The translations under genes were made by a program, and so were the position numbers. Under the pieces are notes generated by a model. The model saw only the letters and a program-made list of their open reading frames with translations, was not told the DNA's origin and did no database searches. Shown here piece by piece: positions 5,729 to 58,348 of a stretch of 64,000 nucleotides of DNA. The first letter of the stretch is position 1. Each line of letters starts with the position of its first letter. The DNA is from an uncultured Bacteroidales bacterium (GTDB taxonomy: Bacteria > Bacteroidota > Bacteroidia > Bacteroidales > F082): contig CAMYXP010000003.1 of assembly GCA_947303085.1 (NCBI GenBank), positions 186,001 to 250,000 on the forward strand, written 5' to 3'.

Positions 5729-5808
5729 CGTCATTTCGACTGAAGCGAAACGGAGAAATCTCATATTATTAACAGTTGGAGATTTCTCGACTACGCTCGA
5801 AATGACGG
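5729..5808. repeat. Dispersed palindromic repeat, full two-armed copy (intergenic)
   Basis: Arm 1 (5729-5762) begins CGTCATTTCGA and ends GGAGAAATCTC. Arm 2 (5778-5808) begins GGAGATTTCTCGA and ends TCGAAATGACGG. The two are near reverse complements around a 15-base AT-rich loop. The element fills almost the whole gap between two convergent genes and may also serve as their terminator. Related copies lie at 38397-38443, 40611-40707, 45478-45505, 46381-46420 and 57291-57328. Confidence 0.9.
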
Positions 5809-5814
5809 TGTGAT

Positions 5815-6225
5815 TCAGTATCTGTCATAAGGATCATCATAAGGCTCGTCAAAGCCTTCTTCATCGAAATATTCTTCCTCGTCTTCACCGAAAATGTCAT
5901 CCTCATCCTCGGCAAACATGTTTTCGCCTTCTTCCCAGTCGAAATCCTCTTCAAGTTTGCTCTCATCAAACTCGTCGATGTCGTTCATGTCGTTCATGAA
6001 GTCGCGCAATTCCTCGTCACTCATCTCATCGAGGTTGGCTGTCAACAACTTATTGTCGCGTGACGATGCCCTCAGCTCCTTCAAAACATCAGGCGCAATG
6101 TAGAAATCATCGATGTTTTCCTGGCAATATTTGATGTATTTAGGGTCTTTTTCAAATACTTCCGCTAATGTTTCACCCTCATATTTTCCAAAAGTGAAAA
6201 TAGAATCAATGTCGTAAAATTTCAT
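5815..6225 (-). CDS. ExoX C-terminal-like domain protein with acidic tail
   Basis: 136 residues. The N-terminal 50 residues contain FTFGKYEGETLAEV and YIKYCQENIDDF, matching the small domain found at the C-terminus of exonuclease-X-like proteins, here without any nuclease domain. The rest is strongly acidic (runs of D and E from about residue 75), ending YDDPYDRY. No catalytic residues are visible. The acidic half may be disordered or mimic nucleic acid; that is inference. It is convergent with the glycosyltransferase gene, with a palindromic repeat between them. Confidence 0.7.
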   Translation of the reverse strand: MKFYDIDSIFTFGKYEGETLAEVFEKDPKYIKYCQENIDDFYIAPDVLKELRASSRDNKLLTANLDEMSDEELRDFMNDMNDIDEFDESKLEEDFDWEEGENMFAEDEDDIFGEDEEEYFDEEGFDEPYDDPYDRY

Positions 6226-6287
6226 ATCTTAATAAATTTTTGATTTACAAAAGTATTAAATTTTCTTAACACAAGCAAGAAAAATAA

Positions 6288-6656
6288 CTATTTTTTAAAA
6301 ATAAAGTAAACAGCGAGTATAAGAAATCCGAATCCAATGAGATGATTCCAGTTAAACTCACCCATTTTGAATACTTTGATACTGATAATCATGAAGATAA
6401 TCAAGCTAACAGCTTCTTGAATAACCTTAAGTTGCACCAAGGTAAATGGTCCGCCGTTAACAATCGAGCCCATTCTGTTGGCAGGAATCATGAACGAATA
6501 CTCAAAAAAAGCCACGCCCCAACTTGCTAAAATGACAAGAATCAAGGGCCAGTCTTTCATAACACCCATTTCGCTAAGCTTAATATTGCCATACCATGCG
6601 AATGTCATGAAGACATTGGAAACCATGAGCATCAAAATAGTGTAAAGTCCCTTCAT
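6288..6656 (-). CDS. DUF486 (DMT-type) small membrane protein
   Basis: 122 residues with four hydrophobic helices. NVFMTFAWYG near the N-terminus and FFEYSFMIPANRMG in the middle are the hallmarks of DUF486, a small branch of the drug/metabolite transporter fold related to SMR-type exporters. The substrate is unknown. It is transcribed away from gmhA, with 61 bases of AT-rich DNA between the two starts. Confidence 0.85.
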   Translation of the reverse strand: MKGLYTILMLMVSNVFMTFAWYGNIKLSEMGVMKDWPLILVILASWGVAFFEYSFMIPANRMGSIVNGGPFTLVQLKVIQEAVSLIIFMIISIKVFKMGEFNWNHLIGFGFLILAVYFIFKK

Positions 6657-6717
6657 TTTTCAAAATTTGCCGCAAAATTCGGAATTTTTTATTTATCTTT
6701 GCAAAAATATTTAAAAA

Positions 6718-7293
6718 ATGATTTCCATTGAAAATATCATAAAAGATTCAATTGATGTTAAGCAATTGATTCTCAAAGATAAAAAACTGGTCAAAAGAAT
6801 CAATGACGCTGCTTCGGTTTGCATTGAATCGCTGAAAAACGGCGGGAAGATTCATTTTTGCGGCAATGGCGGCAGCGCTTCCGACGCACAACATCTCGCG
6901 GCGGAGCTGAGCGGCCGTTTCTATTACGACCGTCCGCCGCTCAATGCTGAGGCTTTACACGTGAATACCAGCTATCTGACAGCCGTCGCCAACGATTATT
7001 CCTACGATATGGTTTATGCCCGCATGCTTCAGGCTTCGGCAAAGAAAGGCGACGTTTTTGTTGCAATCAGCACGTCGGGAAACTCAGCTAACATATTGAA
7101 AGCCATTGAGGTTGCTAAAGCAATTGGTGTTAAAACCATTGGAATGACAGGGGAGACCGGCGGCAAAATGGCCGACGTATGCGATATTATGCTCAATGTG
7201 CCAAGCAAATGCACGCCTCGTATTCAGGAATCTCACATTATGATTGGTCATATCATCTGCGAGATTATCGAAGCCACTATTTTCCCTAGATAA
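6718..7293 (+). CDS. gmhA: Phosphoheptose isomerase GmhA
   Basis: 191 residues. It converts sedoheptulose 7-phosphate to D-glycero-D-manno-heptose 7-phosphate, the first step of ADP-heptose synthesis for LPS core. The SIS fold is shown by FCGNGGSASDAQHLAAELSG, STSGNSANIL and IGMTGETGG, with the active-site QESHIMIGH near the C-terminus. Length is normal. TATCTTTG at 6694-6701 is a good -7 box 16 bases before the ATG; the -33 match is poor. The next gene, a GmhB-like phosphatase, starts one base after the stop, so the two form an operon for successive heptose steps. Confidence 0.95.
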   Translation: MISIENIIKDSIDVKQLILKDKKLVKRINDAASVCIESLKNGGKIHFCGNGGSASDAQHLAAELSGRFYYDRPPLNAEALHVNTSYLTAVANDYSYDMVYARMLQASAKKGDVFVAISTSGNSANILKAIEVAKAIGVKTIGMTGETGGKMADVCDIMLNVPSKCTPRIQESHIMIGHIICEIIEATIFPR

Positions 7294-7294
7294 T

Positions 7295-7834
7295 ATGGAT
7301 TGGAGAGGCAAAATCGACAAAACTTGGACATTGTTCCTCGACCGCGACGGCGTCATCAACGTGCGTCTCATCGACGATTATGTCAAGAATATCAACGAGT
7401 TCAAGTTTTTGCCAGGTGTTTTAGAAGCATTTAAGATATTTGCTGAGAAATTTGGTCGTATCATCATTATAACCAACCAGCAGGGCGTCGGAAAAGGCCT
7501 GATGACACTCCAAGACGTCGATGCAGTTCACGATTTCATGCTTAAAGCTATTGAAAGTCAGAAGGGTAGGGTCGACAAGATTTATATTTGCCCGCAACTG
7601 AAGTCAGATCCGAACAATTTCCGCAAGCCGAGTCCTAAAATGGCTTACATGGCGCAACACGATTTCCCTGACATCGACCTTGAGAAATCCATCATGATAG
7701 GTGATTCTAACTCCGATATCGAGTTCGGCCGTAATGCTGGAATGTATACTATATTAATAGGTGACGAGCCTGTAAAAACAGGTCCGCACGATAAACTCAA
7801 ATCGCTTTCAGAGTTCGCTAAAATATTAAAGTAA
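7295..7834 (+). CDS. GmhB-like HAD phosphatase (heptose 1,7-bisphosphate 7-phosphatase)
   Basis: 179 residues from the ATG at 7295; earlier in-frame starts lie within gmhA. HAD motif I is FLDRDGVIN, motif II is ITNQQGVGKG, and the motif IV region reads IGDSNSDIEFG. The usual GmhB zinc-binding cysteines are mostly absent: only one CPQ is seen, so the metal site is probably degenerate. The role is inferred from HAD type, length and linkage to gmhA. A related histidinol-phosphatase-like role is the alternative. Confidence 0.8.
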   Translation: MDWRGKIDKTWTLFLDRDGVINVRLIDDYVKNINEFKFLPGVLEAFKIFAEKFGRIIIITNQQGVGKGLMTLQDVDAVHDFMLKAIESQKGRVDKIYICPQLKSDPNNFRKPSPKMAYMAQHDFPDIDLEKSIMIGDSNSDIEFGRNAGMYTILIGDEPVKTGPHDKLKSLSEFAKILK

Positions 7835-7877
7835 TACTTTATATAAAATAGTTTAATTTATTTATAACCAATAATAT

Positions 7878-9374
7878 ATGTCAACGTTAATACTAACGGT
7901 TTTTATTGTTTACACAGTGTTGATTCTCGCCATCGCGCACTTCACTTCGCGCAAGTCGACAAACGAGACATTCTTCACCGGAAACCGTAAATCGCCGTGG
8001 TTTGTGGTTGCTTACGGCATGATTGGAGCGTCGCTTTCGGGCGTCACCTTCATGTCGGTGCCAGGCAACGTCTACACCAGCCAATTCACGTATTTCGGCA
8101 TAGTACTTGGCTATATCATTGGTTACGCAGTTATCGCGTTGATACTCTTGCCTTTATACTACAAACTCAACCTCACGTCAATCTATTCGTACCTCGAGAT
8201 GCGCTTCGGAAAGCACTCCGAAAAGACCGGCGCGGCCTTCTTCATCTTGTCGCGTCTGCTCGGCTCGGCTCTTCGTATGTATTTGGTTGTCTTTGTGTTA
8301 TATGAGTTTGTGTTCAAGGCCTGGGGCATCCCGTTCTGGGTTCCGGCAGTCATTTTCATAGCATTGATATTGGTCTATACCTTCAAAGGCGGCATCAAAA
8401 CCGTGGTCTGGACCGACACCCTGCAAACCACATTCCTGCTTCTCGCGGCGATTATCACCGTGGTGTGCATTTTGAAAGAGCTTAACATCTCGATTCCCGA
8501 CCTGCTGAAAGCCTCGTCGGAACAAGGCTACACCAAACTGTTTGAGACCGACCCAAACCACAGCCGTTTCTGGCTGAAACAGATTCTCAGCGGCGCGTTT
8601 ATCACCATAGTGATGACAGGCCTCGACCAGGACATGATGCAGAAAAACATGACGTGCAAGAGTCTCCGCGACGCCCAGAAAAACGTGATGACTTCGAGCA
8701 TCCTGTTCATATTCGTCAACATCATCTTCCTTTGCCTCGGCGCGTCACTCATCTACTATGCGCAACGCACTGGTTTTCAACTGCCTACAAACGAAAGTGG
8801 AGTAGTGGTTAACGACAAGATTTTCCCGGCTATCGCATTCAGTTTCAGCAAGTTCACTAGCATTGTGTTTGTCATCGGACTGGTCGCGGCAGGCTATTCG
8901 TCAGCCGATGGCACACTGACGGCTTTGACGACCACTTTCTGTTACAATTTCCTTGATTTTGGCGACAAAACCGACGTTTCAGAAGAGCAGAAACTCAAGA
9001 CAAGAAAGCGTATTCACATTGTATTTGCGATAGTTTACCTGTTGGTAATCATAGCGTTCCGTCCGTTCCACAATCAATCGCTGATCGACAAAGTATTCGA
9101 AATCGCCGGCTACACCTACGGACCGCTGCTCGGACTGTACACATTCGGACTTTTCATCAAAAACCGACGCCCGGTCGATAAATTTGTACCTTATATCGCA
9201 ATAGCATCGCCAATTTTGAGTTATATATTAAACATGTATTCAACACAACTGTTCAATGGCTATAAATTTGGCTTTGAAATATTGATTATCAATGGATTGA
9301 TTACATTTATTGCATTATTAATCACTTCACAAAAAGTAAAAAGTAACTACACATCGATTGTGTTAAATAAATAA
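7878..9374 (+). CDS. Sodium:solute symporter (SSS/SLC5 family)
   Basis: 498 residues with about 13 hydrophobic helices. GASLSGVTFMSVPG near residue 50 and the GYSSADGTLTAL run near residue 340 are typical of the family, the latter carrying sodium-site Ser residues. It imports a solute with sodium across the inner membrane. The substrate is not readable from sequence; members close to this in Bacteroidota are often placed with sialic acid or other sugar genes, but nothing here confirms that. It follows the heptose genes by 43 bases and may be in the same transcript. Confidence 0.9.
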   Translation: MSTLILTVFIVYTVLILAIAHFTSRKSTNETFFTGNRKSPWFVVAYGMIGASLSGVTFMSVPGNVYTSQFTYFGIVLGYIIGYAVIALILLPLYYKLNLTSIYSYLEMRFGKHSEKTGAAFFILSRLLGSALRMYLVVFVLYEFVFKAWGIPFWVPAVIFIALILVYTFKGGIKTVVWTDTLQTTFLLLAAIITVVCILKELNISIPDLLKASSEQGYTKLFETDPNHSRFWLKQILSGAFITIVMTGLDQDMMQKNMTCKSLRDAQKNVMTSSILFIFVNIIFLCLGASLIYYAQRTGFQLPTNESGVVVNDKIFPAIAFSFSKFTSIVFVIGLVAAGYSSADGTLTALTTTFCYNFLDFGDKTDVSEEQKLKTRKRIHIVFAIVYLLVIIAFRPFHNQSLIDKVFEIAGYTYGPLLGLYTFGLFIKNRRPVDKFVPYIAIASPILSYILNMYSTQLFNGYKFGFEILIINGLITFIALLITSQKVKSNYTSIVLNK

Positions 9375-9381
9375 TAACATT

Positions 9382-10844: not shown

Positions 10845-11030
10845 ATATTTGATTTTAATTATTTTCTCACTGCAAATTTATTAAAAATTTCTGAATGATT
10901 TTCGTTTTTAACAATTTTTAACACAACTTGCAAAATATAGCAGGAAATCTTAAAAATCTTTAACAAATCGCCATATTTTTGACAAAACCCCTTTTGAAAA
11001 ATAATATACATTATGTTAAATAGTTTATGT

Positions 11031-12329: not shown

Positions 12330-14882
12330 TTAAACTTCTTGATTATTTTCTGTATTAACGTCGTTTTGGACTTCGTTATTGTCCTGATTTTCAACGTTTT
12401 CTGCATTTTCGTCAAATTCTTCCTCTTCCTCGATATCTTCAGCCTTTACTTTTGTAACAGCTGCGATTTCGTCGTTGTCACGGAGGTTGATGAGGCGCAC
12501 GCCTTGTGTTGCGCGACCCATAACTCTCAGAGTATCAACGGCTATACGGATAAGGATACCCGACTTGTTGATGATCATGAGGTCGTCGCCGTCGACCACG
12601 TCCTTGATAGCCACCAGCTTGCCGGTCTTATCGGTGATGTTCATAGTCTTGACACCCTTGCCGCCACGGTTGGTAATGCGGTATTCCTCGAGGTCGGAAC
12701 GTTTTCCGTAGCCCTTCTCAGAAACCACCAGCACGTTGGTCTGCGGGTCGTCGATGCAGATCATGCCGACGACTTCGTCGTTCTCGTCGTCAACGGTGAT
12801 AGCGCGCACACCTGATGCCGTTCTACCCATCGGACGTACTGTCGACTCGTTGAATCTGATAGCCCTACCCGACTTCAACGCGATCAAAATCTCGCTGTTG
12901 CCGCTTGTCATCTTGGCTTCAAGCAGCTCGTCGCCTTCGCGGATGCCGAGAGCGATGATACCTGTAGCACGTGGACGTGAGTAAGCCTCGAGCGTGGTCT
13001 TCTTGATGATACCCTTCTTCGTGATGAGTGTAAGATAATGATTCTCACAGAATTCAGGACTCATATCAGTCAAGTTGATGTACGCCTTGACGTTGTCGTC
13101 CGGCTCCAGATGGATGAGGTTCTGGATAGCCCTACCCTTGCTTGCCTTAGTGCCTTCCGGGATTTCGAACACGCGGAGCCAGTAGCATCTGCCCTTCTCG
13201 GTGAAGAACAGCATGTAGTTGTGGTTCGTCGCCACGAAGATCTGTTCGATGAAGTCTTCGTCGCGAGCGTCGGAGCCTTTCGAGCCCTTGCCTCCCCTGC
13301 TCTGGCGGCGGTATTCCGTCAGGTTGGTGCGTTTAATATAATTAAGGTGTGAGATTGTCACTACCACCGCGTCGTCGGCGATGATGTCTTCCATCTTGAA
13401 GTCTTCAGCCGTACGCTCGATGGTACTCTTACGCTCGTCACCGTATTTCTCCTTAACATAAAGCAGCTCTTTCTTGATGATGTCGAACTGCATCGCCGGA
13501 CTTGCAAGCACTTCCTTGAGATGAGCTATGAGTTTGTGTAACTCTTCGAGTTCATCCATGATCTTCTTGATCTCGAGGCCTGCCAACTGACCTAAACGGT
13601 AAGCCACGATAGCAGCTGCCTGCGGGTCGTCGAATCCGTATTGATCCATCAAAGCCTGCTTGGCTTCCTGTGAGCCGCCTTTGCAAGCTCGGATTGTAGC
13701 GATGATCTGGTCGACGATGTCGATAGCTCGTGCGAGACCTTCCAAGATATGAGCGCGTTTCTCAGCCTCACGAAGGTCGTGCTGGGTTCTGCGTACCACG
13801 CACTGATGACGGTGTTCGACGTAATATTGTATCAACTGCTTGAGATTCAATGTGTGAGGACGGCCGTTCACCAAACACACGTTGTTCACGCTGAATGAGC
13901 TCTGGAGGCCTGTCATCTGGAACAATTTATTCAAGACGACACTCGACACCGCGTCGCGTTTCAAGTCGTAAACGATACGCAGACCGTTACGGTCCGATTC
14001 ATCGCGGATGTCAGCGATTCCGTCGAGTTTCTTCTCTCCGATGAGGTCGGCGGTACGCTTGATCATATCAGCCTTGTTGGTCTGGTAAGGCACCGATGTG
14101 GCGATGATGCGCTCGTGGCCGTTATGCTCCTCAATAGTAGTATTTGCACGCAAAACGATACGTCCGCGGCCTGTCTCGAAAGCGTCTTTCACCCCTTCGT
14201 AGCCGTAGATGATACCGCCTGTCGGGAAATCAGGAGCCTTGATATATTCCATCAACTCGCTGACAGTGATGTCGTTCTTGTCGATATAAGCAATGATTCC
14301 GTCGACCACCTCGCTTAAGTTGTGAGGCGGCATGTTGGTTGCCATACCCACTGCGATACCGCTCGCTCCGTTCACCAAAAGGTTCGGGATGAGTGACGGC
14401 AAAACGGTAGGTTCCTGCTCGGAATCATCGTAGTTATTCATAAAGTCAACGGTATCCTTGTCGAGGTCGGCAAGCATCTCCTCAGCGATCTTTCTCAATC
14501 GAGCCTCGGTGTAACGCATAGCCGCTGGCGGGTCAGCGTCCATTGAGCCGAAATTACCCTGACCGTCGATGAGAGGATAACGCATGCTCCAGTCCTGAGC
14601 CAGACGCACCATAGCGTCGTACACCGACGAGTCACCGTGTGGGTGGTACTTTCCTAAAACTTCGCCGACTACCTTAGCTGATTTCTTGTACGGGCGGTTC
14701 GAGAGAACACCCATGTCCATCATGCCGTAAAGGATGCGGCGGTGCACAGGTTTCAAGCCGTCTCTGACATCAGGCAATGCACGAGCCACGATAACCGACA
14801 TAGAGTAGTCGATATAACTCGTTTTCATGTGATCCTCAATGCCAATCGGGACTATTCTTTCACCTTCAAACTGTTCTTCCAT
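12330..14882 (-). CDS. gyrA: DNA gyrase subunit A
   Basis: 850 residues. GyrA cuts and rejoins DNA in the A2B2 gyrase that introduces negative supercoils. The N-terminal domain shows [21 protein letters not shown] and the catalytic Tyr124 in AAMRYTEAR. The quinolone-resistance region reads [10 protein letters not shown], so the residues matching E. coli Ser83 and Asp87 (Ser85 and Asp89 here) are the unmutated ones. C-terminal beta-pinwheel repeats ([15 protein letters not shown]) follow, then an acidic N/E-rich tail. The promoter probably lies at 14925-14932 (TATTTTTG on the minus strand). Confidence 0.97.
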
Positions 14883-23558: not shown

Positions 23559-24344
23559 TTAGAAATCTTTTGAATTTAATCTATAATCTCTAATAACCTT
23601 ATCTCTTTTCTTCATAACCTCTTTCCAGATGGTTTGTCTGATATCTTCAATCCAGTTGTCTTTAATTGCATCTTTAATTACCTTGTCGAATAGATATTTT
23701 TCTTTCTCAGCACCAACAGGTTCATCTAACTTACCATCTGGAGTATAATCAAAATCCCCAATATCATATACCCAAGGATCTTCTTTATGTCTCTTGAAAT
23801 AACCACAGAAGGTGGTCTGCTTATCTATTGAATAATCCATAAACTTATAACCATACCACACATATCCTTCTTCTCGGGTTAATCTTTCATGAGTGTCACA
23901 AATTTTAGGTCTAATACATTCAAATAGAATGTGTTCAAAGTACGACAACGCATCAGCCCATTTCTGTTCTTCAAACAACTCATACCACTTTTCATCAAGA
24001 ATCTTTTGCGCTAATGGTTTCCTTTCACCACCTAAAAGCATATTATATCCTTTGGCAATGTTTGCAGAATCATATTCTGAAATATACTTCCTCTCTAATT
24101 TATTTAGCTTCTCTACAAGTAATGTCGGTTTCTTTTCATCAACTTCAATCTCTTTCAATACCTCAATTTTAATATTTTCCTTCCCGTATTTGTTAATTGC
24201 GGCATCGCATACCATTTTTGAGTGCAATTTCTTAGAATTGCTCACATGTTCATACCAACGTTTCTCAACACTAGTTGTGGTCTGTCCAATATAGACTTTA
24301 CCATTGGGATATGTATATTTGTATATATAACCTTTTAATGACAT
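23559..24344 (-). CDS. GIY-YIG endonuclease-domain protein at the end of the hsd operon
   Basis: 261 residues. The N-terminal 100 residues are a GIY-YIG domain of homing-endonuclease type: YIYKYTYPNGKVYIGQTT, KRWYEHVSN, INKYGKENIKIEVL, EYDSANIAKGYNMLLGG. The C-terminal 150 residues have no motif I recognise. It starts 8 bases after hsdR, so it belongs to the operon. It could be an accessory nuclease or a passenger homing gene. A second GIY-YIG gene of a different subtype lies at 33934. Confidence 0.8.
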   Translation of the reverse strand: MSLKGYIYKYTYPNGKVYIGQTTTSVEKRWYEHVSNSKKLHSKMVCDAAINKYGKENIKIEVLKEIEVDEKKPTLLVEKLNKLERKYISEYDSANIAKGYNMLLGGERKPLAQKILDEKWYELFEEQKWADALSYFEHILFECIRPKICDTHERLTREEGYVWYGYKFMDYSIDKQTTFCGYFKRHKEDPWVYDIGDFDYTPDGKLDEPVGAEKEKYLFDKVIKDAIKDNWIEDIRQTIWKEVMKKRDKVIRDYRLNSKDF

Positions 24345-24352
24345 CGTTTTAA

Positions 24353-27300
24353 CTAATTTTCATTCTCCTTGAAATTCTCCACCTGCTCCATCACTTCCTT
24401 GAACACTTCTGGGGAATATTGTGGAGGATAACCGTTTTTAACAAGACATATTTTGATGTCGTACTTAAGGTCGTTGCGCACGATGGTGTTGTTAAGCCAG
24501 TCGGCGAATACAGATTTTGCGTCTATGATTTCACGAATCTTATGGGCCAAGCTCTTGCATTTCTCATTTACCACAATGCCATCTAGCATTTTGTCTTCAC
24601 CATACTCGAAATTGTTTTTGTCTCTTAGGTGAATGAGGATATCGTAAAACGCCTTTTCCTCAAAGCTAAGACCCAGCTTACGGAAGCTCTCGCGGTCTTT
24701 CTGCATTTCTTTGAGAATTTCAAGGGCCTGTTCTGTTGCTGTTTGGATAATGCTCTCCGCCGTTTCTTCTTGTGCAGCACCAGCTTCTTGTTCTGACAGG
24801 AATTTCCGTCTTTCGTGGTACTGTTTGATGGTGTTTTCCAACAGTTCCTGAAATCTCTTTGAAGCCAGTTGGTTGGTTCTACCATATTCGGTGATTCGCT
24901 TGCGAAGCAGTTTGACCAACGATTCCAACTTTGAGGCTGGCATCTTAATATCCGAGAGCTTTTCGGTGAACTCCGGACCAAAAATATCCATTTCTTCTCC
25001 TTCTTCGAGGATACTTTCCACATTGTTGTATTTTAAGGCCTCCTCCACCATTTTTGCTACATGGCGATTCATAGTGTCTGTATCTGGAGCATCAGTGCCA
25101 TTCATCTTGTAAATCATGCCTGCAATCGCCATAAAACACTGTGCCAATGCCGATTCCTCTTCTCCCAATTCACCTGATGGTTGACACAAGTCGTAAGCTT
25201 TTCGCATGCGCTTGACTTCTTGTAAAAAGTATGTCTTGAAACTGACTTTTTTGACTTTTTTGCCGTCTTTGCTCTCAGAATTTAGGAATTGGTTGGAAAC
25301 GAGAACAAATTCCGCCGCTTTTGCCAGCAGAGTATAACGTGCGGCAGGATCAGTGTCAGGATTTAGGAATGGCTTCAGTTCATAGCCATTGAACAAACTT
25401 TTGATGATTACCAGATGCTCGCGGAATATGGTGGTGGCTTGCTCTATGTCATCGGTAGATGGAGCCAACGAAGTTCCTCCACCACAACCGCCGTATATTT
25501 TCATTGCCTCCATCATATAATCACGGATGCCAATGTAGTCCACAATCAAACCGAAGTCCTTGTTAGGATACTTGCGGTTCACTCGGCTGATGGTCTGAAT
25601 CAGAGAGTGTTTCTGCAAAGGCTTATCGTTGTACATATATGTGAGGCAATCCACATCGAAGCCCGTAATCCACATGTCCACCACAATAACGATACGGAAG
25701 TTTGAGTATTCCTGCTTAAAGGCTGCATCCAATTCATCTGAACGTTTGTCATTCTTTACACCACCGAGGTAGTTATACATATCCGCTTCATCATTGCTAC
25801 TCACACTGGCCACCATAGCAATAGTTGGCATTTCTTTCAACTTCCGCAACTCTTCAGGTGGAATGACAACTCCGTCCGGAGTCTTCTTCTCTTCAAACCA
25901 TTCTGAATAATGTTTCTTGAACATCATCAACAAATCGTAGGCTATTTTACGATTGGCACATACTATCATGGCTTTTTGCACACGGCTGGGGTCGTTGGCA
26001 ACAGCTGCAACATAGTGATCATGAATATCTACTGCCAATTTATCAAGTCGGTCTGGTTCGCCCAGTAAGACCTCTAACGAGCTCATTGCCTTCTTGCTCT
26101 TGGAAATATCTTCTTTGGTAGAGCCTTCATCGGCACACTTCGAGTAGTAGTTTTCAATATCCTTCACTCTTTCCTGATTAAGCAGCACCTTGGCAATACG
26201 AGGATGATATTTGATGGGGACGGTGATTTCGTCGGCAACAGCCTGGTCCATAGTGTAGCGGTCTATCTCATCGCCAAATGTTTGGTAGGTCTCTGCGATA
26301 GGTGTACCAGTGAATCCAACAAATGTGGCATTGGGCAGTGCTTCACGAAGCACTTTGGCGTAGGGTTTCGATACCATCGCCTTCATGTTCTCATCAGCAT
26401 CCTCACTGAATTGTATGCGGCGCGAGCCTTCAATCTGTGTACGGTGTGCCTCATCGCTAAAACAAATGATGTTCGAACGTTCATTGATGAGGCCAATAGG
26501 ATCATCCTTCCTGTCGCAGAATTTTTGGATGGTGCAAATATAGAAGCCTCCTGTCTTTCGCAACTTTAGTTCCTCACGCAATATTTTGCGACTTGGAACA
26601 ATCCTAACTTCTCCCAAACCCAAAAACTCTTGACTCTTAGTGAACAACTTCGCACCTTGCTTTTGAAGGTCCTCGCGGTCCACAATCATCAAGATGGTGG
26701 GAGAACCCAGTTCATTAGCACAACGCATCGCCAACTGTCGGGCGAGAAAAGCCATCGTATAAGTCTTTCCACAGCCCGTAGCACCGAAGTAGGTGCCGCC
26801 TTTCCCACTCTTGTTTTTCACCGACTTAATAACGCTTTCACGCAACAAACGAGTGGCAAAGAATTGAGGGTAACGGCAGACTATTTCTTTCTCGTCGTGA
26901 TCATAGTTCTCATCCTGGAAATAGACATAATCTCTAAAGATTTCAAGAAAACGGTCAGGGCGATACACGCCTTTCACGATGGTTTCAAGTTCGTCGTATG
27001 GCATCGTCGAAACCTTGTCACCATCCTCAATGCGCCTCCATGCGTAAAAGTGTTCGTAAGGAGTGCGTACAGTTCCCAATCGGGTCTTCACTCCGTCGCT
27101 GATGCAAGCCAACGGACAATAGTGCAGCAAATGCGGAATGTCGCGCCAGTAGCGGATGTTGATTTGCTCCCAAGCGTCAATTATCTTGGCGTTGGCATCG
27201 GCGGGATTTTTCAGCTCAATGACGCAGACCGGCATTCCGTTCACATATAGCAGCACATCTGGTCGGCGAGTTTTGGTTTCCCCGTTGTTGACATATTCTA

Positions 27301-27706
27301 CCGTAAACTGGTTTACCACACGAAAGATATTATTGTTGAGCATCTTCGGATTGTCAAGCGTACTGAAATCGATAAGCCGGATAATGCGAGCTTCGCCGTT
27401 CTTTGGAACAAATTGCATTCCATCCACCATCCATTTATACACCTTATGCAGTGTCGCAAAGTCGGAATCGGCACCTATCAGTCTGACATTTTCGGCAATT
27501 TGACGTATATCTTCATCGTCCAAATCGCTATAGTTCTTTTTGAGGTATTGTAGTAGGTCGTCCATGTAAAGCACTTCCTTGCGGTTCTCTCGTGAGATGC
27601 TGTCGCCGAAGAGGTATTGCCAACCCTCACCCTCAAGGAATGCGATAAACGCATTTTCGTAATCGCTTTCAACGAAGTGGCCGTTGATATTATTAAATTT
27701 TGCCAT
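24353..27706 (-). CDS. hsdR: Type I restriction enzyme, R subunit
   Basis: 1117 residues. It translocates and cuts unmodified DNA as part of the R2M2S complex. The N-terminal nuclease domain has PDVLLYVNGMPVCVIELKNP, with the PD...ELK catalytic residues. Helicase motifs follow: Walker A GATGCGKTY, DEAH in CFSDEAHRTQ, FTGTPI, and VVDMWITGFD with TISRVNRKY for motifs V/VI. Length suits the family and no break is seen. It follows the RloC-like gene by 42 bases. Confidence 0.96.
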   Translation of the reverse strand: MAKFNNINGHFVESDYENAFIAFLEGEGWQYLFGDSISRENRKEVLYMDDLLQYLKKNYSDLDDEDIRQIAENVRLIGADSDFATLHKVYKWMVDGMQFVPKNGEARIIRLIDFSTLDNPKMLNNNIFRVVNQFTVEYVNNGETKTRRPDVLLYVNGMPVCVIELKNPADANAKIIDAWEQINIRYWRDIPHLLHYCPLACISDGVKTRLGTVRTPYEHFYAWRRIEDGDKVSTMPYDELETIVKGVYRPDRFLEIFRDYVYFQDENYDHDEKEIVCRYPQFFATRLLRESVIKSVKNKSGKGGTYFGATGCGKTYTMAFLARQLAMRCANELGSPTILMIVDREDLQKQGAKLFTKSQEFLGLGEVRIVPSRKILREELKLRKTGGFYICTIQKFCDRKDDPIGLINERSNIICFSDEAHRTQIEGSRRIQFSEDADENMKAMVSKPYAKVLREALPNATFVGFTGTPIAETYQTFGDEIDRYTMDQAVADEITVPIKYHPRIAKVLLNQERVKDIENYYSKCADEGSTKEDISKSKKAMSSLEVLLGEPDRLDKLAVDIHDHYVAAVANDPSRVQKAMIVCANRKIAYDLLMMFKKHYSEWFEEKKTPDGVVIPPEELRKLKEMPTIAMVASVSSNDEADMYNYLGGVKNDKRSDELDAAFKQEYSNFRIVIVVDMWITGFDVDCLTYMYNDKPLQKHSLIQTISRVNRKYPNKDFGLIVDYIGIRDYMMEAMKIYGGCGGGTSLAPSTDDIEQATTIFREHLVIIKSLFNGYELKPFLNPDTDPAARYTLLAKAAEFVLVSNQFLNSESKDGKKVKKVSFKTYFLQEVKRMRKAYDLCQPSGELGEEESALAQCFMAIAGMIYKMNGTDAPDTDTMNRHVAKMVEEALKYNNVESILEEGEEMDIFGPEFTEKLSDIKMPASKLESLVKLLRKRITEYGRTNQLASKRFQELLENTIKQYHERRKFLSEQEAGAAQEETAESIIQTATEQALEILKEMQKDRESFRKLGLSFEEKAFYDILIHLRDKNNFEYGEDKMLDGIVVNEKCKSLAHKIREIIDAKSVFADWLNNTIVRNDLKYDIKICLVKNGYPPQYSPEVFKEVMEQVENFKENEN

Positions 27707-38396: not shown

Positions 38397-38443
38397 GATT
38401 TCTCCACTTCGCTCCATTTCATTTCGCTTCGGTCGAAATGACA
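38397..38443. repeat. Palindromic repeat, half copy forming the 3' end of ribBA
   Basis: Reads GATTTCTCCACTTCGCTCCA... to CGGTCGAAATGAC on the plus strand. On the minus strand its first 25 bases code for the last residues of RibBA (VISTEAK) and supply the stop codon. Confidence 0.9.
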
Positions 38444-40304: not shown

Positions 40305-41455
40305 ATCTTTCCTTTAATTAAAATATCTCCGTTAATATTTTGAATATCAATATTTTGCAATTGAATTGCATCGTTCATTTTTTCTATTCCCTTGCCAGCA
40401 ACAGGTGTCTTCGCGCCTTCACCACCGATTATTTTCGGTGCTACAAACGCCCAAACTTCGTCGACGCAACCTGCCTCAAGGAACGCGGCGTTCAGGGTGC
40501 CGCCGCCTTCCAATAATAATGAATCGATGCCCATAGAACCTAATTTGGTCATCAGGTCGTTGATGTCGACGTGATCGTTATTCGATTGACATTCAAGGAT
40601 TTCGACTCCTGTCATTTCGAGCTTGTCGAGAAATCCTTTTTGTTCGTTATCGTTACATGAGGATTTCTCCACTTCGCTCCGCTCTGCTTCGCTACGGTCG
40701 AAATGACAACAAGCAACAATTGTTCTGTATTCCTTTGCCGTCTTAACCAATTGAGAATCAATCGGTATCATTAAATTTGAATCAACAACAATTCTGATTG
40801 GCTGATGATGTTCACCATTCAACCTAACATTCAGCATCGGGTCGTCGGCAAGGACAGTTCCTATTCCCACGATAACGCCTGCCATTTCGCTTCTAAGATC
40901 ATGAACCAGCTTGCGGGATTCTTCGTTTGTCACCCACTTAGAATCGCCTGTATGAGCCGCTATTTTGCCGTCGAGGGTCATTGCGGTCTTCATGATGACG
41001 TACGGACGCTTGGTGGTGATATATTTCAAGAACACCTCGTTCAATTCGCTAATCTCATCTTCGCAAAGTCCGACCTCAACCTCAATGCCTGCATCTTGCA
41101 AAATCTTTACACCTTTTCCAGCTACAAGGGGGTTCGGGTCGAGGATGCCGACGAAGACTTTTTTAATACCTTTTTCAATGATTATTTCGGTGCAAGGAGG
41201 CGTTTTTCCGTAGTGGCAACAAGGTTCAAGTGTTACATAAAGTGAAGCGCCTTTAGTTTCTGATTTACAGCGTAATAGAGTATTACGTTCGGCATGATAT
41301 TCGCCGTATTTTTCGTGATATCCTTCGGCGATGATCTCACCGTCTTTCACGACCACGCAGCCCACCAAAGGATTCGGATGGACGTATCCTCCGCCCTTCT
41401 TGGCTAGCTCGATGGCGCGCCGCATAAACTCGATGTCTTTTTCGCAATATGACAT
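40289..41455 (-). CDS. ribD: Bifunctional riboflavin deaminase/reductase, interrupted in frame by a palindromic repeat
   Basis: 388 residues, longer than the usual 330-370. The deaminase half has HAERNTLLRC and PCCHYGKTPPC, the zinc and catalytic residues. The reductase half has MKTAMTLDGKIAA, TNEESRKLVHDLR and LLLEGGGTLNAAFL, all intact. Residues about 250-282 (HFDRSEAERSEVEKSS... to KLEMTG) are coded by the repeat at 40611-40707 and have no counterpart in the family. They fall in the reductase domain between the VVDSNLMIPI strand and the ILEC segment, where a surface loop is plausible. First gene after the FMN riboswitch. Confidence 0.93.
   Translation of the reverse strand: MSYCEKDIEFMRRAIELAKKGGGYVHPNPLVGCVVVKDGEIIAEGYHEKYGEYHAERNTLLRCKSETKGASLYVTLEPCCHYGKTPPCTEIIIEKGIKKVFVGILDPNPLVAGKGVKILQDAGIEVEVGLCEDEISELNEVFLKYITTKRPYVIMKTAMTLDGKIAAHTGDSKWVTNEESRKLVHDLRSEMAGVIVGIGTVLADDPMLNVRLNGEHHQPIRIVVDSNLMIPIDSQLVKTAKEYRTIVACCHFDRSEAERSEVEKSSCNDNEQKGFLDKLEMTGVEILECQSNNDHVDINDLMTKLGSMGIDSLLLEGGGTLNAAFLEAGCVDEVWAFVAPKIIGGEGAKTPVAGKGIEKMNDAIQLQNIDIQNINGDILIKGKICSRE
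40611..40707. repeat. Palindromic repeat, full two-armed copy inside ribD
   Basis: GTCATTTCGAGCTTGTCGAG... (40611-40636) and GGATTTCTCCACTTCGCTCC... to CGGTCGAAATGAC (40660-40707) are inverted around a 23-base spacer, the same layout as the intergenic copy at 5729-5808. The frame stays open through both arms on the minus strand. Confidence 0.92.
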
Positions 41456-41513
41456 AAAAAAAGCCCCAAATAAACATCAGGGCAGCATATTTTGAAAAAT
41501 TTAAACAAACAAA

Positions 41514-41623
41514 CTTCTCTCATCCGGACTGTCACCGTCGGTTTCGGAATTTCACCGAATCAGTTCCCCTTAGGGAAGTCGCGGACTGTCACCGCCGGAA
41601 AGGAATTTCACCTTGCCCTGAAG
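41514..41623 (-). promoter_or_regulatory. FMN riboswitch (RFN element)
   Basis: On the minus strand it begins CTTCAGGGCAAGGTGAAATT and ends GGTGACAGTCCGGATGAGAG plus AAG. The RFN signature segments GGCGGTGACAGTCCGCGAC and ACCGACGGTGACAGTCCG are both present, with the closing stem CTTC...GAAG. It lies 58 bases upstream of ribD and should lower ribD-ribE-ribBA expression when FMN is plentiful. TATTTTTG on the minus strand (at about 41634-41641) is the probable -7 box. Confidence 0.97.
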
Positions 41624-41661
41624 TTTTCGACTGCAAAAATACACAAATTTTTAATTGTGTA

Positions 41662-44690: not shown

Positions 44691-46187
44691 ATGCTGACTT
44701 TGGAAGAGATTAAGAAAACTATAGTCGAACTCATTGAAAATCTAGGAGAAAAGGTTTTAGAAATCACGGTGATGCCCAGTTCAGGCTCATCGAGACGATA
44801 TTTTCGTGTGAAAACCGACAAGCGAAATCTGATTGGAGCGCATAACATCAACATCGAGGAAAACGACGCTTTCTTCAGTTTTTCCAAGCATTTCCACAAA
44901 TGCGGACTGCCTGTTCCCGAGATTTTGGCGATCTCTTCCGACAAAGATGTTTATGTGCAGACAGATTTAGGCGATGACACGTTGTTCAATCATGTTGAGA
45001 ATTGTTTGAATAACGGGAAATTTGATGAAGAGACAATTAATTTATACAAAAAATCTCTCAATAAACTCGTTGATTTTCAGATAGTTGGACATAAAGGTTT
45101 AGATTATTCCAAGGCATTCCCCACCCCTGCCTTCGACGAGATGTCAATAATGGAGGATTTGAATTATTTCAAATATTGTTTCTTGAAGGAGCAGGAAGAG
45201 ATTTCGTTCAATGAGACACGTTTAGACACTGATTTTCAGCGACTTGCGCAATACATTTTAGAGGCTCCGTCGGATTACTTCATGTATCGTGATTTCCAGT
45301 CGAGAAACATCATGATTGTCGACAACGAGCCTTATTTCATTGATTATCAGGGAGGAAGAAAGGGACCATTGCAGTATGATGTGGTTTCGTTGCTGTATCA
45401 GGTGAAAGCGAGGATTCCGGAGGATTTGAGAAAAGAATTGACTGAGTATTATAAACAGCAACTATCAATAAAAGCTTGTCATTCCGAGCGCAGCGAGGAA
45501 TCTCATAATGCTCAGCAGTTACTTATTAAATCATTCGACAAATTCTTCCCTGCTTTTGTTCTTCTTCGTCTCCTTCAAGTTCTTGGCGCGTATGGTTTTA
45601 GAGGCCTGATACAGAAGAAGTTACATTTCATGCAGAGCATTCCGTATGCCATTAAGGAATTGTTGATAGTGAATGAAAAATGGGAATTGCCGTTTGAATT
45701 GCCTGAGTTGCAGTCGGTGATAAGGCAACTGAACATCGTTTTGACAAAATACGAAAGTGTTGAACCTGAACGACTAACGATTACAGTCAACAGTTTCTCA
45801 TACAAAAACGGCGGCGTACCTTACGACAAGAGCGGCAACGGCGGCGGATTTGTTTTTGACTGCAGGGCTTTGCCAAACCCGGGACGATATGCAGAATTCA
45901 AGAAAAGCACTGGCGAAGACCGCGATGTTATCGAGTTTATGGACGACAAGCCGGATACGCATTATTTCTTGCAAAACGTTCAAATGCTTGTGTTTCAATC
46001 GATTGACAACTATTTGGAACGCGGTTTCAAGAACCTGCAAATCAATTTCGGATGCACTGGCGGTCAGCACAGGTCGGTGTTTTTTGCGCAAACAATCGGC
46101 AGGATGATTCATGAAAACTACCCGATGGTTAACGTTGAAATCAACCATCTGGCACAACATATCTCTCACGTTTATGAAGCAAAATAG
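44691..46187 (+). CDS. AmgK-like sugar kinase fused to RapZ C-terminal domain
   Basis: 498 residues from the ATG at 44691. Residues 1-345 are an aminoglycoside-phosphotransferase fold (SSRRYFRV, YVQTDLGDDTLF, YRDFQSRNIMIV with catalytic Asp, FIDYQGGRKGP) like AmgK, which phosphorylates MurNAc/GlcNAc at C1. Residues about 361-498 match the RapZ C-terminal domain (FDCRALPNPG, GCTGGQHRSV), which binds amino-sugar phosphate and RNA in E. coli. The next gene, MurU-like, overlaps by 14 bases, supporting salvage to UDP-MurNAc. Residues about 263-272 (HSERSEES) come from a palindromic repeat. Confidence 0.8.
   Translation: MLTLEEIKKTIVELIENLGEKVLEITVMPSSGSSRRYFRVKTDKRNLIGAHNINIEENDAFFSFSKHFHKCGLPVPEILAISSDKDVYVQTDLGDDTLFNHVENCLNNGKFDEETINLYKKSLNKLVDFQIVGHKGLDYSKAFPTPAFDEMSIMEDLNYFKYCFLKEQEEISFNETRLDTDFQRLAQYILEAPSDYFMYRDFQSRNIMIVDNEPYFIDYQGGRKGPLQYDVVSLLYQVKARIPEDLRKELTEYYKQQLSIKACHSERSEESHNAQQLLIKSFDKFFPAFVLLRLLQVLGAYGFRGLIQKKLHFMQSIPYAIKELLIVNEKWELPFELPELQSVIRQLNIVLTKYESVEPERLTITVNSFSYKNGGVPYDKSGNGGGFVFDCRALPNPGRYAEFKKSTGEDRDVIEFMDDKPDTHYFLQNVQMLVFQSIDNYLERGFKNLQINFGCTGGQHRSVFFAQTIGRMIHENYPMVNVEINHLAQHISHVYEAK
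45478..45505. repeat. Palindromic repeat, short variant inside the kinase-RapZ gene
   Basis: GTCATTCCGAGCGCAGCGAG then GAATCTCA, a diverged single arm (CCGAGCG in place of TCGA). It is read in frame as CHSERSEESHN in the kinase C-terminal region, after which clear kinase-type sequence resumes. Confidence 0.85.
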
Positions 46188-46938
46188 AAGAACGGCATTT
46201 ATCCTCGCGGCAGGACTCGGCACTCGTCTGAAAGAGCTGACAGCTAATAAGCCAAAGGCTTTAGTATCAATAAATAACGAGCCTTTACTTAAAGTATTGC
46301 TTGAAGTGTTGATACAGCAAGGTTTTAATCATATTGTGGTTAATGTTCATCATTTTGGAGAGAAAATAATTGACTATTTAGGAGATTTCTCCACTTCGCT
46401 TCGCTCCGGTCGAAATGACAAAATGATTGAGATCGAAATCTCCGACGAGCGACCGATGTTGATGGACACAGGAGGTGCAGTTTTGCAGGCTCTGCCCTAT
46501 TTCGCTGATAGCGAGGCGGTACTTGTCCATAATGTCGATGTGCTTACAAACGTTGATTTGAAAGGCTTTTACGACGATTTCTGCAAAAGCGGCGATGCCG
46601 CTTGGCTGCTCACTCAGGAGCGCAACAGCAAGCGTAAATTGGTGTTCGACGATAACGACAATTTTCTTGGAAGGTTTAACAGCGAGACCAACGATTATGA
46701 CGGCAACGGCGCATTGCCAAACCAATGTAAATTATTGTCATTCAGCGGAATACACATTTTCAAACCTGAATATTTCAAAAGTTTTGAAGTAAAACCTTGT
46801 TATATTTTCGAATTGTATAGGAAAATAGCTGTAAATCATAAAGTTACATCAAAATTGATACACCCTGATTATTGGTTTGATTTGGGAACACAGGAACAAC
46901 TGAAAAATGCAGAAGCATGGCTTTTATCAAAAAGATAA
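46174..46938 (+). CDS. MurU-like sugar-1-phosphate nucleotidyltransferase
   Basis: 254 residues from the ATG at 46174. AFILAAGLGTRLKELTANKPKAL is the nucleotide-binding head (shown in part in family terms as AAGxGTRLxPLT), and DTGGAVLQAL and LVHNVDVLTN hold the metal Asp. Such enzymes (MurU, GlmU-N type) make UDP-MurNAc or another NDP-sugar from the 1-phosphate. The partner kinase upstream overlaps it by 14 bases, and the nuclease downstream by 22. Residues about 70-83 (DFSTSLRSGRND) are coded by a palindromic repeat and have no match in the family. Confidence 0.8.
   Translation: MKQNRRTAFILAAGLGTRLKELTANKPKALVSINNEPLLKVLLEVLIQQGFNHIVVNVHHFGEKIIDYLGDFSTSLRSGRNDKMIEIEISDERPMLMDTGGAVLQALPYFADSEAVLVHNVDVLTNVDLKGFYDDFCKSGDAAWLLTQERNSKRKLVFDDNDNFLGRFNSETNDYDGNGALPNQCKLLSFSGIHIFKPEYFKSFEVKPCYIFELYRKIAVNHKVTSKLIHPDYWFDLGTQEQLKNAEAWLLSKR
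46381..46420. repeat. Palindromic repeat, single arm inside the MurU-like gene
   Basis: GGAGATTTCTCCACTTCGCT... CGGTCGAAATGACA, the closest in wording to the arm at 38397-38443. It falls in the loop after DYL and before the IEISDE strand. Confidence 0.9.
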
Positions 46939-53536: not shown

Positions 53537-53563
53537 CTTAAGTAAATCAAAATCAATAACATA

Positions 53564-55627: not shown

Positions 55628-55634
55628 GTCGTTA

Positions 55635-56609
55635 TTAAAATTTCTTTCTTAATCTGAATCTCAACCTTTCGAATCCAGTCTTTTTCAGTGATTCGACATG
55701 ACGTTCGAGCTTGTCGCCGGTTATGCCGCTGAATGGAATCAAAATGCCGGAATCGAAGATGTCGCCGAACTCATCGTTTATGCCAGTGCCGAAATATTGC
55801 ATATCGGGCGAGAGATTCATGTAAGAGTTAACCAACGGAGGGATATTCACGCCGCATTCCATGATGAATGCTTTGAATGCTTTGTAATCTTCCTTGAAGT
55901 CATTGGTTTTCAAATATTTTGAATATCTCAAAGAGCGTCTCACAACGACCTTTTTCTTCAACTCGATGAGATGACGGTTTTTCGCTCCGAACCACTTGTT
56001 CAGGAACACCTGAATCATCTCGCGAGCCTTGGTCGGATACTGGGTGTAGATCGTCATTTTGCCGAAGAAATACTCCATTCGGCCTTTATGAAGAAGCATA
56101 AGAGCACCCAAGCCGTCGAAGAGGTTATCCAAAGCGAAGATGCTCTTCTTCCCTGCCCTAGTGCTTTGATAATCAACGGTTACGAATGACCTACCAAGCT
56201 CAATTGTCTTGTCGATGTAATTCGACAAAAACCTTCTTGAGAACTTGAACATATGCGATGATGTCAATATCGGTTGACCGAATTTGTCGTAGACGATGCT
56301 GTCGCAAAGCGCGTATCTGTATCCGCCTACGATGCGCTCAGCCTCAGGATCCCATAGCACCAGCTGCTTGTAGCCGTAAGCCTCGTCGATGTCGAACTTA
56401 TCCAAATCCAATGGCTGACCAGTGCCGCCGCCTCCTGCACGAAAAGCCTCCTCACGCAGACGGCCGATCTCACGCACCACATTAGGCGCGTTCTGGTTGT
56501 TCACGACGTAAATCTCATTGTCACCACGATTAGTCTTTCTGAGAAACTTATCTTTCGTCAGCTCCGATTTCAACAAATCGACGTCAACAGGTGAAATTAT
56601 CTTCTTCAT
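55635..56609 (-). CDS. GlsB/OlsB-like N-acyltransferase
   Basis: 324 residues. The acyltransferase core (VREIGRLREEAFRAGGGGTG, KQLVLWDPEAERIVGGYR, ELGRSFV, FDGLGALMLLHKGRMEYFFG) belongs to the OlsB-related family once called putative hemolysins. In Bacteroides the enzyme acylates glycine for glycine lipids (GlsB). The function is inferred from the family. It is the last gene of the minus-strand Hdr operon, 2 bases after the membrane subunit. Confidence 0.8.
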   Translation of the reverse strand: MKKIISPVDVDLLKSELTKDKFLRKTNRGDNEIYVVNNQNAPNVVREIGRLREEAFRAGGGGTGQPLDLDKFDIDEAYGYKQLVLWDPEAERIVGGYRYALCDSIVYDKFGQPILTSSHMFKFSRRFLSNYIDKTIELGRSFVTVDYQSTRAGKKSIFALDNLFDGLGALMLLHKGRMEYFFGKMTIYTQYPTKAREMIQVFLNKWFGAKNRHLIELKKKVVVRRSLRYSKYLKTNDFKEDYKAFKAFIMECGVNIPPLVNSYMNLSPDMQYFGTGINDEFGDIFDSGILIPFSGITGDKLERHVESLKKTGFERLRFRLRKKF

Positions 56610-56611
56610 AA

Positions 56612-58348
56612 CTAAATATTCTCTACCACAACCTCAGCGATGTCTTTCACTGCGACCGGCGATTTTCTCGCGAATGTCTTAAGACAAAGCGGACATGCTG
56701 TCACAATCTGTTCAGGGTTATTGAACATCAAGTCGTTAACCGAATTTTCAGTTATCTCGTCGCGCTCTTGCTGTGTCAAGTTGAAGCTGCCCAAACTTCC
56801 GCCACAACAGATGCTCAGTTCTTTCTCCGACTTCGCTTTCTTCAGATTACCAACATTTTCGATCACTTCGCGAGGCTCGTCGTAAACGCCGAATGCACGG
56901 CCGAGCTCACATGGGTCGTGATAAACATAGTTCACCTCGCCCTTGTTGACTTTCAACTTACCGTTCTTAATCAACTCGTCGATATACTGTGTATGATGCT
57001 GAATCTCAATGCCTTCAAGATGATTTTCCTCTTTGAAAACTTTATAGCAGATTGGGCATGAAAGCACCAGTTTCTTAGCTCTTGATTGCTTGATAATCTC
57101 AGTGTTTTTAGCAATCATAGCTTGTGCTTCAGCGGTTTTTCCACTTAACAGCATCGGGCGTCCGCAGCAAATGCCACCGTCTTTGTCCATAAACTCATAA
57201 TTCTCGCCTGCAGCCTCCATGATTTGTTTCATGGCACGCATGATTTTAGGGGTTAGTTGGGTCATGCAGCCGGCGAAATAAAGAACAGAAGGAGATTTCT
57301 CCGCTCCCTGCGGTCGGTCGAAATGACGGTCTTCGAGATATGAATGGTCGCTATTAATAATATAAGGTGTGGCTTCACGTTGAGTCATCTTGATGTCACA
57401 CGACTCGATGCTCAACGGACAAACGGCGACGCATTTTCCACACTGCATGCAGGTTTCGGCTATGCGTTTAGCTTCCTTGTCATCAGCATTTCTTAACTTT
57501 TTCATGAAATAAGCCGATGTATTGCCACTCATCTTATCGTTGACGCTCATAGGGCAAGCATCGATGCACAAACCGCAGCTCGGGCATGAGTAAATCTGCG
57601 CCAAAGCGTAGCCTTTGCGAGGCTCACGAGGCTTCAAACCTGCATGACGCAGCAAGATAAACAGCGCCTCCGTCGGGATGTGCATATAGCGAGTGAACGG
57701 CAGCAAGCACATAAATATCATCAAATCGATGGAATAGAGCCACCAAAATGCCATGATATTACTCTTTTCGGCAATTAATCTGAATGGGAAGATGGTCCAC
57801 AAGGCAAAACGTACCATGTTATCGGCAAAACCGAACTTCGTGACACGCTTCACTCCCACTATCTTCGAGTAAATCTTCTTAACCACAGCGATGAGGATGC
57901 CGCTGATAATCATCAGAAGGAAGAAGTCCATCAGGAAGGCGAAAACTGGAGTTTCCGTTGCGAAATGCTTGTAAAATATCGGATAATAGAAGTTAGTGAA
58001 CGTGCGCGCAAAGCCTTCAACCTCAACGCCTTCGAGCGGTTTCAGGGTGAAAAGCATCACGTGTCCGATCACGATAATCATAAACCAGCCGAACGCTATG
58101 GCCGAGTGCATGTAACCCAAAATAGGGTTACGTTTCCAAATCTTAACATGGAAAAGGCAGTCGCCAAACAGGTCGCGGATGTTAGCCCAAGCGGTCTTAG
58201 GTGTCACCAGCGAGCGCCAGAACTGTTTCCTGTCGTCTTTCGGCAACAGACAGATAACTCTAAAAAGCCCCACAACGCAGTACGTCAGCACGAAAGCCAT
58301 GCCTAGCACAAACGGGAGCACAAATGGATGGAAAATATACTGGTTCAT
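56612..58348 (-). CDS. Membrane heterodisulfide-reductase-like iron-sulfur subunit (HdrE-HdrD fusion type)
   Basis: 578 residues. Five hydrophobic helices (to about 225) resemble the cytochrome-b/NarI-type anchor. Two 4Fe-4S motifs follow (CPSCGLCIDACP, CMQCGKCVAVCP), then two CCG domains with YFAGCMTQL, GGICCGRP, SCPICYKV, YHDPCELG, SICCGGSLG and ACPLCLKTF. I infer that electrons from the soluble subunits reach menaquinone here. Residues about 341-353 (HFDRPQGAEKSPS) are coded by a palindromic repeat just before the first CCG motif. It overlaps the small iron-sulfur gene by four bases. Confidence 0.82.
   Translation of the reverse strand: MNQYIFHPFVLPFVLGMAFVLTYCVVGLFRVICLLPKDDRKQFWRSLVTPKTAWANIRDLFGDCLFHVKIWKRNPILGYMHSAIAFGWFMIIVIGHVMLFTLKPLEGVEVEGFARTFTNFYYPIFYKHFATETPVFAFLMDFFLLMIISGILIAVVKKIYSKIVGVKRVTKFGFADNMVRFALWTIFPFRLIAEKSNIMAFWWLYSIDLMIFMCLLPFTRYMHIPTEALFILLRHAGLKPREPRKGYALAQIYSCPSCGLCIDACPMSVNDKMSGNTSAYFMKKLRNADDKEAKRIAETCMQCGKCVAVCPLSIESCDIKMTQREATPYIINSDHSYLEDRHFDRPQGAEKSPSVLYFAGCMTQLTPKIMRAMKQIMEAAGENYEFMDKDGGICCGRPMLLSGKTAEAQAMIAKNTEIIKQSRAKKLVLSCPICYKVFKEENHLEGIEIQHHTQYIDELIKNGKLKVNKGEVNYVYHDPCELGRAFGVYDEPREVIENVGNLKKAKSEKELSICCGGSLGSFNLTQQERDEITENSVNDLMFNNPEQIVTACPLCLKTFARKSPVAVKDIAEVVVENI
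57291..57328. repeat. Palindromic repeat, single arm inside the Hdr membrane subunit gene
   Basis: GGAGATTTCTCCGCTCCCTG then CGGTCGGTCGAAATGACG. It is shorter in the middle than other copies but keeps both ends. Read on the minus strand it encodes the linker between the ferredoxin and CCG domains. Confidence 0.9.

Follow-up and report, generated by a model that had tools for sequence, protein, structure and literature searches.

The 64,000-nucleotide stretch of an uncultured Bacteroidales genome analysed here (the window; its source genome is G000) carries, between and inside its genes, copies of a palindromic repeat family. These copies are probably REP/REPIN-like elements (repetitive extragenic palindromes and their hairpin-forming pairs) whose partner enzyme is a small GIY-YIG nuclease and not a Y1 transposase. 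Eight arms of the form GTCATT[T/C]CGA lie at six places in the window: seven exact GTCATTTCGA arms (5730+, 5797-, 38433-, 40611+, 40698-, 46410- and 57318-) and a single GTCATTCCGA arm (45478+). The units that they delimit, whose types A, B and C are described below, are as follows.

5729..5808 (+): complete dimer made of an A unit followed by an inverted B unit (arms 5730+ and 5797-), between a glycosyltransferase gene and a convergent open reading frame (ORF)
38397..38443 (-): single A unit whose middle is lengthened; it gives ribBA its last codons and stop
40611..40707 (+): complete dimer made of a B unit followed by an inverted A unit (in the direction of the gene, A comes first), in frame within ribD
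45478..45505 (+): single C-type unit, in frame within a kinase-RapZ gene, giving the peptide HSERSEES
46381..46420 (-): single A unit, in frame within a MurU-like nucleotidyltransferase gene
57291..57328 (-): single A unit, in frame within an Hdr-like iron-sulphur protein gene

All six copies had been located by an earlier, sequence-only reading of the window, and repeat sequence is confirmed at each of them. The shared ends and cores that it attributed to all six are present in five, whereas the copy at 45478 is of a sister type (GTCATTCCGA...GAGGAATC). It also had five copies overlapping genes in frame: the ribD, kinase-RapZ, MurU-like and Hdr-like ORFs do run open through their copies, but the ribBA copy provides only the end of the gene. 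The 5729..5808 dimer occupies most of the 86-bp gap separating two convergent genes. Allowing at most one mismatch, the window holds 18 arm matches against a shuffled mean of 8.5, and 11 matches to GAGAAATC against 4.6; none of 100 shuffles reached the observed value in either case. A strict 31-base pattern matched the window copy alone, and a search of one literature library with the peptide HSERSEES gave no match.

Three unit types were distinguished, A (GTCATTTCGAC...GGAGAAATC), B (GTCATTTCGAG...TCGAGAAATC) and C (GTCATTCCGA...GAGGAATC), each built on a 5-bp outer stem, ATTYC/GRAAT, around a middle of variable length. The complete short form consists of unlike A and B units placed face to face, with GTCATTTCGA at the outer ends. 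This pairing was found in eight of the nine T-type dimers (those with GTCATTTCGA arms) of a G000 sample made up of the window, all other sequence of contig C3 and 160 kb from the start of contig C2, a contiguous and not a random selection (448 kb counted, 444 kb distinct, the arm-free 4 kb at window 1-4000 being included twice). The dimers at 5729-5808 and 40611-40707 each form, as single strands, one long hairpin (z -5.7 for the first and -5.1 for the second; 0 of 200 shuffles as good in both cases), and the structured form is the dimer, not the single unit. The base preceding GTC in the 39 arms of the sample was T in 24 and C in 15, the GTCATT part being fixed by the search pattern. Selection of the repeats for open frames was considered and rejected. 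Across 33 units, a mean of 4.33 of the six frames were open, compared with 3.72 in shuffled units (maximum 4.15 of 200) and 3.95 in random genome pieces; since the maximum for the latter was 4.39, the openness of the units is no greater than that of ordinary genome sequence. For nine dimers the mean was 1.33 against 0.93 in shuffles (maximum 1.67).

Genome-wide, G000 (2.31 Mb in 12 contigs, 99.88% complete) contains 159 GTCATTYCGA arms, against 3 for the same pattern read backwards. The 39 arms of the sample form 25 clusters, which extrapolates to about 130 elements, counting exact arms alone and missing decayed copies. The family is thus dispersed and present in many copies, as the sequence-only reading had it, although its figure of hundreds per genome was somewhat high. 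Only 7 of the 25 clusters lie inside ORFs of at least 150 codons in any frame, compared with 82% of random positions, and we conclude that the family avoids genes. The contact with genes stressed by the same reading is real in the window (four of six clusters in long ORFs) but atypical elsewhere in the sample (3 of 19, one of them an unpaired arm and possibly a chance match), so that the run of genic copies in the window is unusual.

Among 60 genomes of the genus, 16 are high-copy, with 38 to 364 arms, and the other 44 have 3 to 33 (reversed-pattern control, 0 to 12); the cut at 38 was set after the data had been seen, the next genomes below it being G036 (33) and G031 (28). Fifteen of the 16 have a RibD at least 81% identical to the window protein and are referred to here as the clade, while the sixteenth, G001, has one of 60% identity. 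A longer form of the element has the same two ends as the short dimer and, between them, a nuclease gene of about 105-120 codons. Two cassettes of this kind are present in G000, one near 71011 of G000:C1 and the other near 92028 of G000:C7, and neither lies in the window; in G000:C1, the ORF between the B unit and the inverted unit encodes a single-domain GIY-YIG protein. The nuclease matches Pfam GIY-YIG (PF01541, E 3.9e-15), with no NCBIfam model above cut-off. A profile search of the PDB returned two UPF0213 proteins (E 0.002-0.003), and the structure model (pLDDT 85.5) matched best the PDB entry 1zg2, a UPF0213 GIY-YIG protein, and then Slx1.

A search for PF01541 covered these 60 genomes, and the flanks were read at 21 small clade loci or fragments. 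Twenty were nuclease genes or fragments bordered by the family arms, 17 of them on both sides and 3 on a single side, these three comprising two at contig ends and one truncated gene. The remaining locus, a G000 gene that is presumably YhbQ-like, had no arms within 700 bp. In the 14 cassettes with GTCATTTCGA arms on both sides, the arms were 376 to 426 bp apart, and in 13 of them 402-426 bp; one of the 14, G047:C129, has a stop within the nuclease gene. Five cassettes with both arms occur in G047. The cassette of G051 is preceded by three further short dimers with a period of 150 bp, and similar dimers, fewer or less regular, were found in G064 and G011. In G058, G015 and G044, a second nuclease subfamily is accompanied by GTCATTCCGA arms. 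None of 18 small GIY-YIG genes from low-copy genomes of the genus had family arms on both sides, and one had a single arm.

Six of these 18 low-copy genes are flanked by another palindrome, CCCTGAGCCTGTCGAAGG, which is present in 16 to 63 copies in those six genomes, in 0 to 3 copies in the 15 clade genomes and frequently in several further genomes. The loci concerned (L140, L141, L142, L145, L146 and L150) encode another nuclease subfamily (MCYMYIL.CSNGQYYVGST). The window itself encodes, at 23559-24344 (-), an ORF of 261 aa whose N-terminal part matches GIY-YIG (E 5.9e-8) and which has no family arms beside it; it lies directly downstream of a 1117-aa helicase-like ORF (24353-27706) that resembles a subunit of a type I restriction system.

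A scan of GTDB genomes with an alignment of nine nucleases (A1) returned 50 loci, 16 of them the clade loci again and 34 new, and a tree was built from 49, leaving out the fragment L250. By their repeats, 14 loci were labelled T, 7 C and 9 G, and 19 had none of these; 27 of the 30 labelled loci carried arms (GTCATTNCGA) on both sides. Among the G group are cyanobacteria, one Chloroflexi, one Elusimicrobia and one Bacteroidales record. Of the 19 unlabelled loci, 18 form a single, fourth nuclease clade, in which CCATTCC[CG], a motif picked after data had been seen, occurs at least twice in the flanks of all 18, compared with 2 of the 30 others; the last, L246, has none of the four repeat types. 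The repeat label changes 4 times on the tree, where 3 is the minimum possible and shuffled labels average 25.2 (0 of 200 as low), although near-copies favour a low count and several forks are weak. Repeat type follows nuclease clade across several phyla, and this agreement, together with the near-constant spacing of the arms, suggests a long association between nuclease and repeat.

The scattered short repeats look like stripped-down relatives of the longer, nuclease-carrying element. In G051, two short dimers match the left end of the cassette of the same genome over 65 and 59 bp (86 and 88%), and the right end of the G000:C7 cassette over 53 and 50 bp (96%). The two forms also alternate at one junction, between genes that we take to be sdaA and thpR. 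A cassette is present there in G064 and G047 (440 bp), an extra A unit plus a cassette (C1) in G000 (494 bp), and a dimer only in G055 and G053 (111-112 bp). The junction is empty in G044 and G061, whose genes overlap by 1 nt, and in G051, G005, G038, G017 and G058 it is 155-193 bp long without exact arms. No thpR was found in G015, and no sdaA match in G011 or G066.

Sites inside genes differ between species as well. The RibD site, read in 15 clade genomes, has T arms in eight, C arms in two, another palindrome in four and none in one. Its T dimers are found in either orientation and are read in different frames, and the four other palindromes (ribD of G011, G038, G066 and G005; L078, L080, L083 and L085) are GTAGAGACG or GTAGGGACG with its inverse in the same loop. 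The stretch of RibD from RTI to VDIND, which is conserved, measures 34 residues in G058, G015, G011, G038, G066 and G005; it is also 34 residues long in the element-free G059, G009, G039 and G001, and 44 in the element-free G017 and G052. It seems from these comparisons that the palindrome replaced resident sequence or another palindrome rather than being simply added, the alternative being that the length of the loop is under selection and that gains and losses were separate events. The site offers a natural series on the tolerance and exchange of inserts inside a biosynthetic enzyme. At the end of ribBA (12 clade genomes), seven have T arms, two have remnants and three have none; at the kinase-RapZ site (11), C occurs alone in three, T with C in two and T in four, with none in two; and at the MurU-like site (12), T occurs in seven, a remnant in three and none in two. 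The Hdr-like site (seven clade genomes) has a T arm in six and another palindrome in one. Copy positions therefore vary, as the sequence-only reading had expected, judging by site content between species and not between strains; the opposing possibility that it had raised, of genic copies being ancestral, holds in part, as the Hdr-like site illustrates. A further palindromic piece (GACCCGAGCGRAGCGAGAGC.., with a short hairpin) lies in frame inside a repeat copy in ribD of G047 (L077) and in the Hdr-like gene of G053 (L138, ~14778-14868).

Taken together, the flanking of the nuclease gene, the near-constant spacing, the agreement of clade and type, the shared ends, the lack of a Y1 gene in G000 and the differences in site content between species make a partnership of nuclease and repeat very likely. 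How the copies spread is a more tentative matter. The target of the nuclease would be the arm or the hairpin of the dimer, probably as single-stranded DNA, and the cut would be made there; copies might then spread as repair of the cut takes another copy as template, a process that resembles homing or gene conversion more than it does transposition. Homing by GIY-YIG enzymes has been described (PMC1564403). Such cutting plus repair-copying is a possibility that we favour with low confidence, mainly on account of the replacement-like pattern at RibD and other genic sites. Genic copies would be the tolerated remainder of a family whose copies are mostly intergenic, keeping the frame and placed where the protein sequence is variable or comes to its end.

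A different enzyme had been proposed in the sequence-only reading, namely a Y1 HUH transposase of the TnpA-REP type (REP-associated tyrosine transposase, RAYT) that mobilises the repeats now or did so recently. We rejected this candidate, which is largely refuted and now highly improbable. The dimer architecture does resemble a REPIN, and Y1 genes were found in 42 of the 60 genus genomes, four clade genomes among them. However, PF01797 (Y1) had no match in G000 at the completeness given above, while matching in 5 of 14 control genomes, and Y1 genes are commoner in low-copy genomes (38 of 44) than in high-copy ones (4 of 16; Fisher p 1.5e-5, with relatives not independent and 15 of the 16 forming one clade). 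In G011 and G064, the match spans only positions 2-82 of 121. No GTCATTYCGA arms were detected near Y1 genes at 24 genus loci (20 whole loci of ~3 kb and 4 more within 700 bp), most of them from low-copy genomes, where the test is weak, and 5 from the high-copy clade; the Y1 gene flanked by the same arms, suggested earlier as a check, did not turn up. Nine of the 20 whole loci are flanked by palindromes of their own, CCCCGTAGGGG, GGCCGTTAGGCC or CCCCGAAGGGG (L032, L033, L036, L041, L044, L047, L049, L050 and L051). What survives of the proposal is the picture of a dispersed, non-autonomous, two-armed family and of an enzyme gene located elsewhere between the same arms, and the GIY-YIG cassette fits that description.

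The partnership with the GIY-YIG nuclease has its own difficulties, and the following observations weigh against it or against the proposed mode of spread. The four single units fold poorly (one z -2.4, three between -0.8 and 0.0), and the two G051 short dimers contain no remains of a nuclease gene. Small GIY-YIG genes also occur in many low-copy genomes of the genus, there without family arms. Four of the 15 clade genomes (G017, G061, G066 and G038; 80-94% complete) have 86 to 187 arms and no detectable nuclease; either these assemblies are incomplete or the repeats outlive the gene, and REPINs are described as persisting in E. coli genomes without a RAYT (PMC8049555). Turnover is slow. Between G051 and G064, about 90% identical, 19 of 20 clusters had an orthologous pair and 16 of the 19 had one or more exact arms in both; of the other three sites, one had a decayed arm and two had 64-75 bp and no exact arm. 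No clean recent insertion was found between these two genomes, and the description of the family as active is not upheld, turnover of sites becoming visible between species of ~80-88% identity. That repeats persist in four of the 15 clade genomes where no nuclease is detectable would suit a nuclease gene that is a passenger or homing-type parasite, landing in an already abundant repeat that spreads otherwise, as would the extra A unit adjoining the C1 cassette of G000, which resembles the nuclease-free dimer at that junction in G055 and G053. We consider this unlikely given the near-constant arm spacing and the agreement of clade and type across several phyla. The nuclease could instead restrict incoming single-stranded DNA. 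In a DNA-uptake or restriction system of this kind, the repeats would mark the genome, the nuclease would limit incoming single strands, and dispersal would reflect slow drift and recombination. The slow turnover is in its favour, as is the role that the GIY-YIG single-strand nucleases named Ssn, reported in 2025 to act on a repeat in Neisseria dRS3, are said to have in Neisseria transformation. The several cassettes per genome (five in G047) and the series of cassette, dimer and empty junctions, however, indicate that the cassette itself disperses, and we regard such a system as quite improbable.

The likeness to Ssn and dRS3 is one of description: a single-domain GIY-YIG protein of ~100 aa and a cognate repeat in many copies, both of which are found here. 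Ssn is said to cut single strands only and sequence-specifically, whereas single-strand cutting by the present nuclease is a prediction. The closest repeats are the CGTC-tagged REPs, which the 2013 survey describes, in its account of these families, as heterodimers with in-frame genic copies and apparently no dedicated transposase (Di Nocera et al. 2013, PMC3733652). Like them, the G000 repeats have a GTC tag preceded by C or T, form heterodimers head to head, include some in-frame genic copies and flank no Y1 gene; unlike them, they do not have a stem of 8-9 bp and a loop of 4-5 nt (PMC3733652). The survey equates Neisseria dRS3 with CGTC-1, and its CGTC families include Rickettsia RPE-4 and RPE-6, palindromes found in frame inside proteins, which are similar by description to the copies seen here (PMC3733652). 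REPINs with their RAYT, as portrayed in the accounts cited, share with the G000 family a short inverted pair that folds into a hairpin, a high copy number, slow turnover and persistence without the enzyme gene, but differ in having a Y1 enzyme, a GTAG tag and a single-copy RAYT, where the present family has a GIY-YIG enzyme, no GTAG and up to several cassettes per genome (PMC8049555, PMC6006769).

In what the 2013 survey says of them, the CGTC-type repeats are left without an enzyme (PMC3733652); the present repeats border a GIY-YIG nuclease gene. We offer as a speculation that REP-like repeats may have another way of living in genomes, independent of RAYTs: the nuclease-free dimers of a GIY-YIG cassette would be copied by cut and repair, one palindrome could take over the position of an unrelated one, and the enzyme missing from the CGTC-type repeats could be supplied. 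The agreement of clade and type in Bacteroidales, cyanobacteria, one Chloroflexi and one Elusimicrobia genome leads to the prediction that each nuclease recognises its own repeat.

The repeats were also considered as members of a known RNA family, which was rejected, as Rfam at gathering thresholds gave only two hits in the window. These are an FMN (flavin mononucleotide) riboswitch at 41508-41629 (-), upstream of ribD, and a Bacteroidales small signal recognition particle (SRP) RNA at 4208-4314 (+). Near the start of the window, the adjacent ORFs 1007-1780 and 1791-2975 (+) share a 249-nt stretch at 80% identity and are probably a tandem gene duplication.

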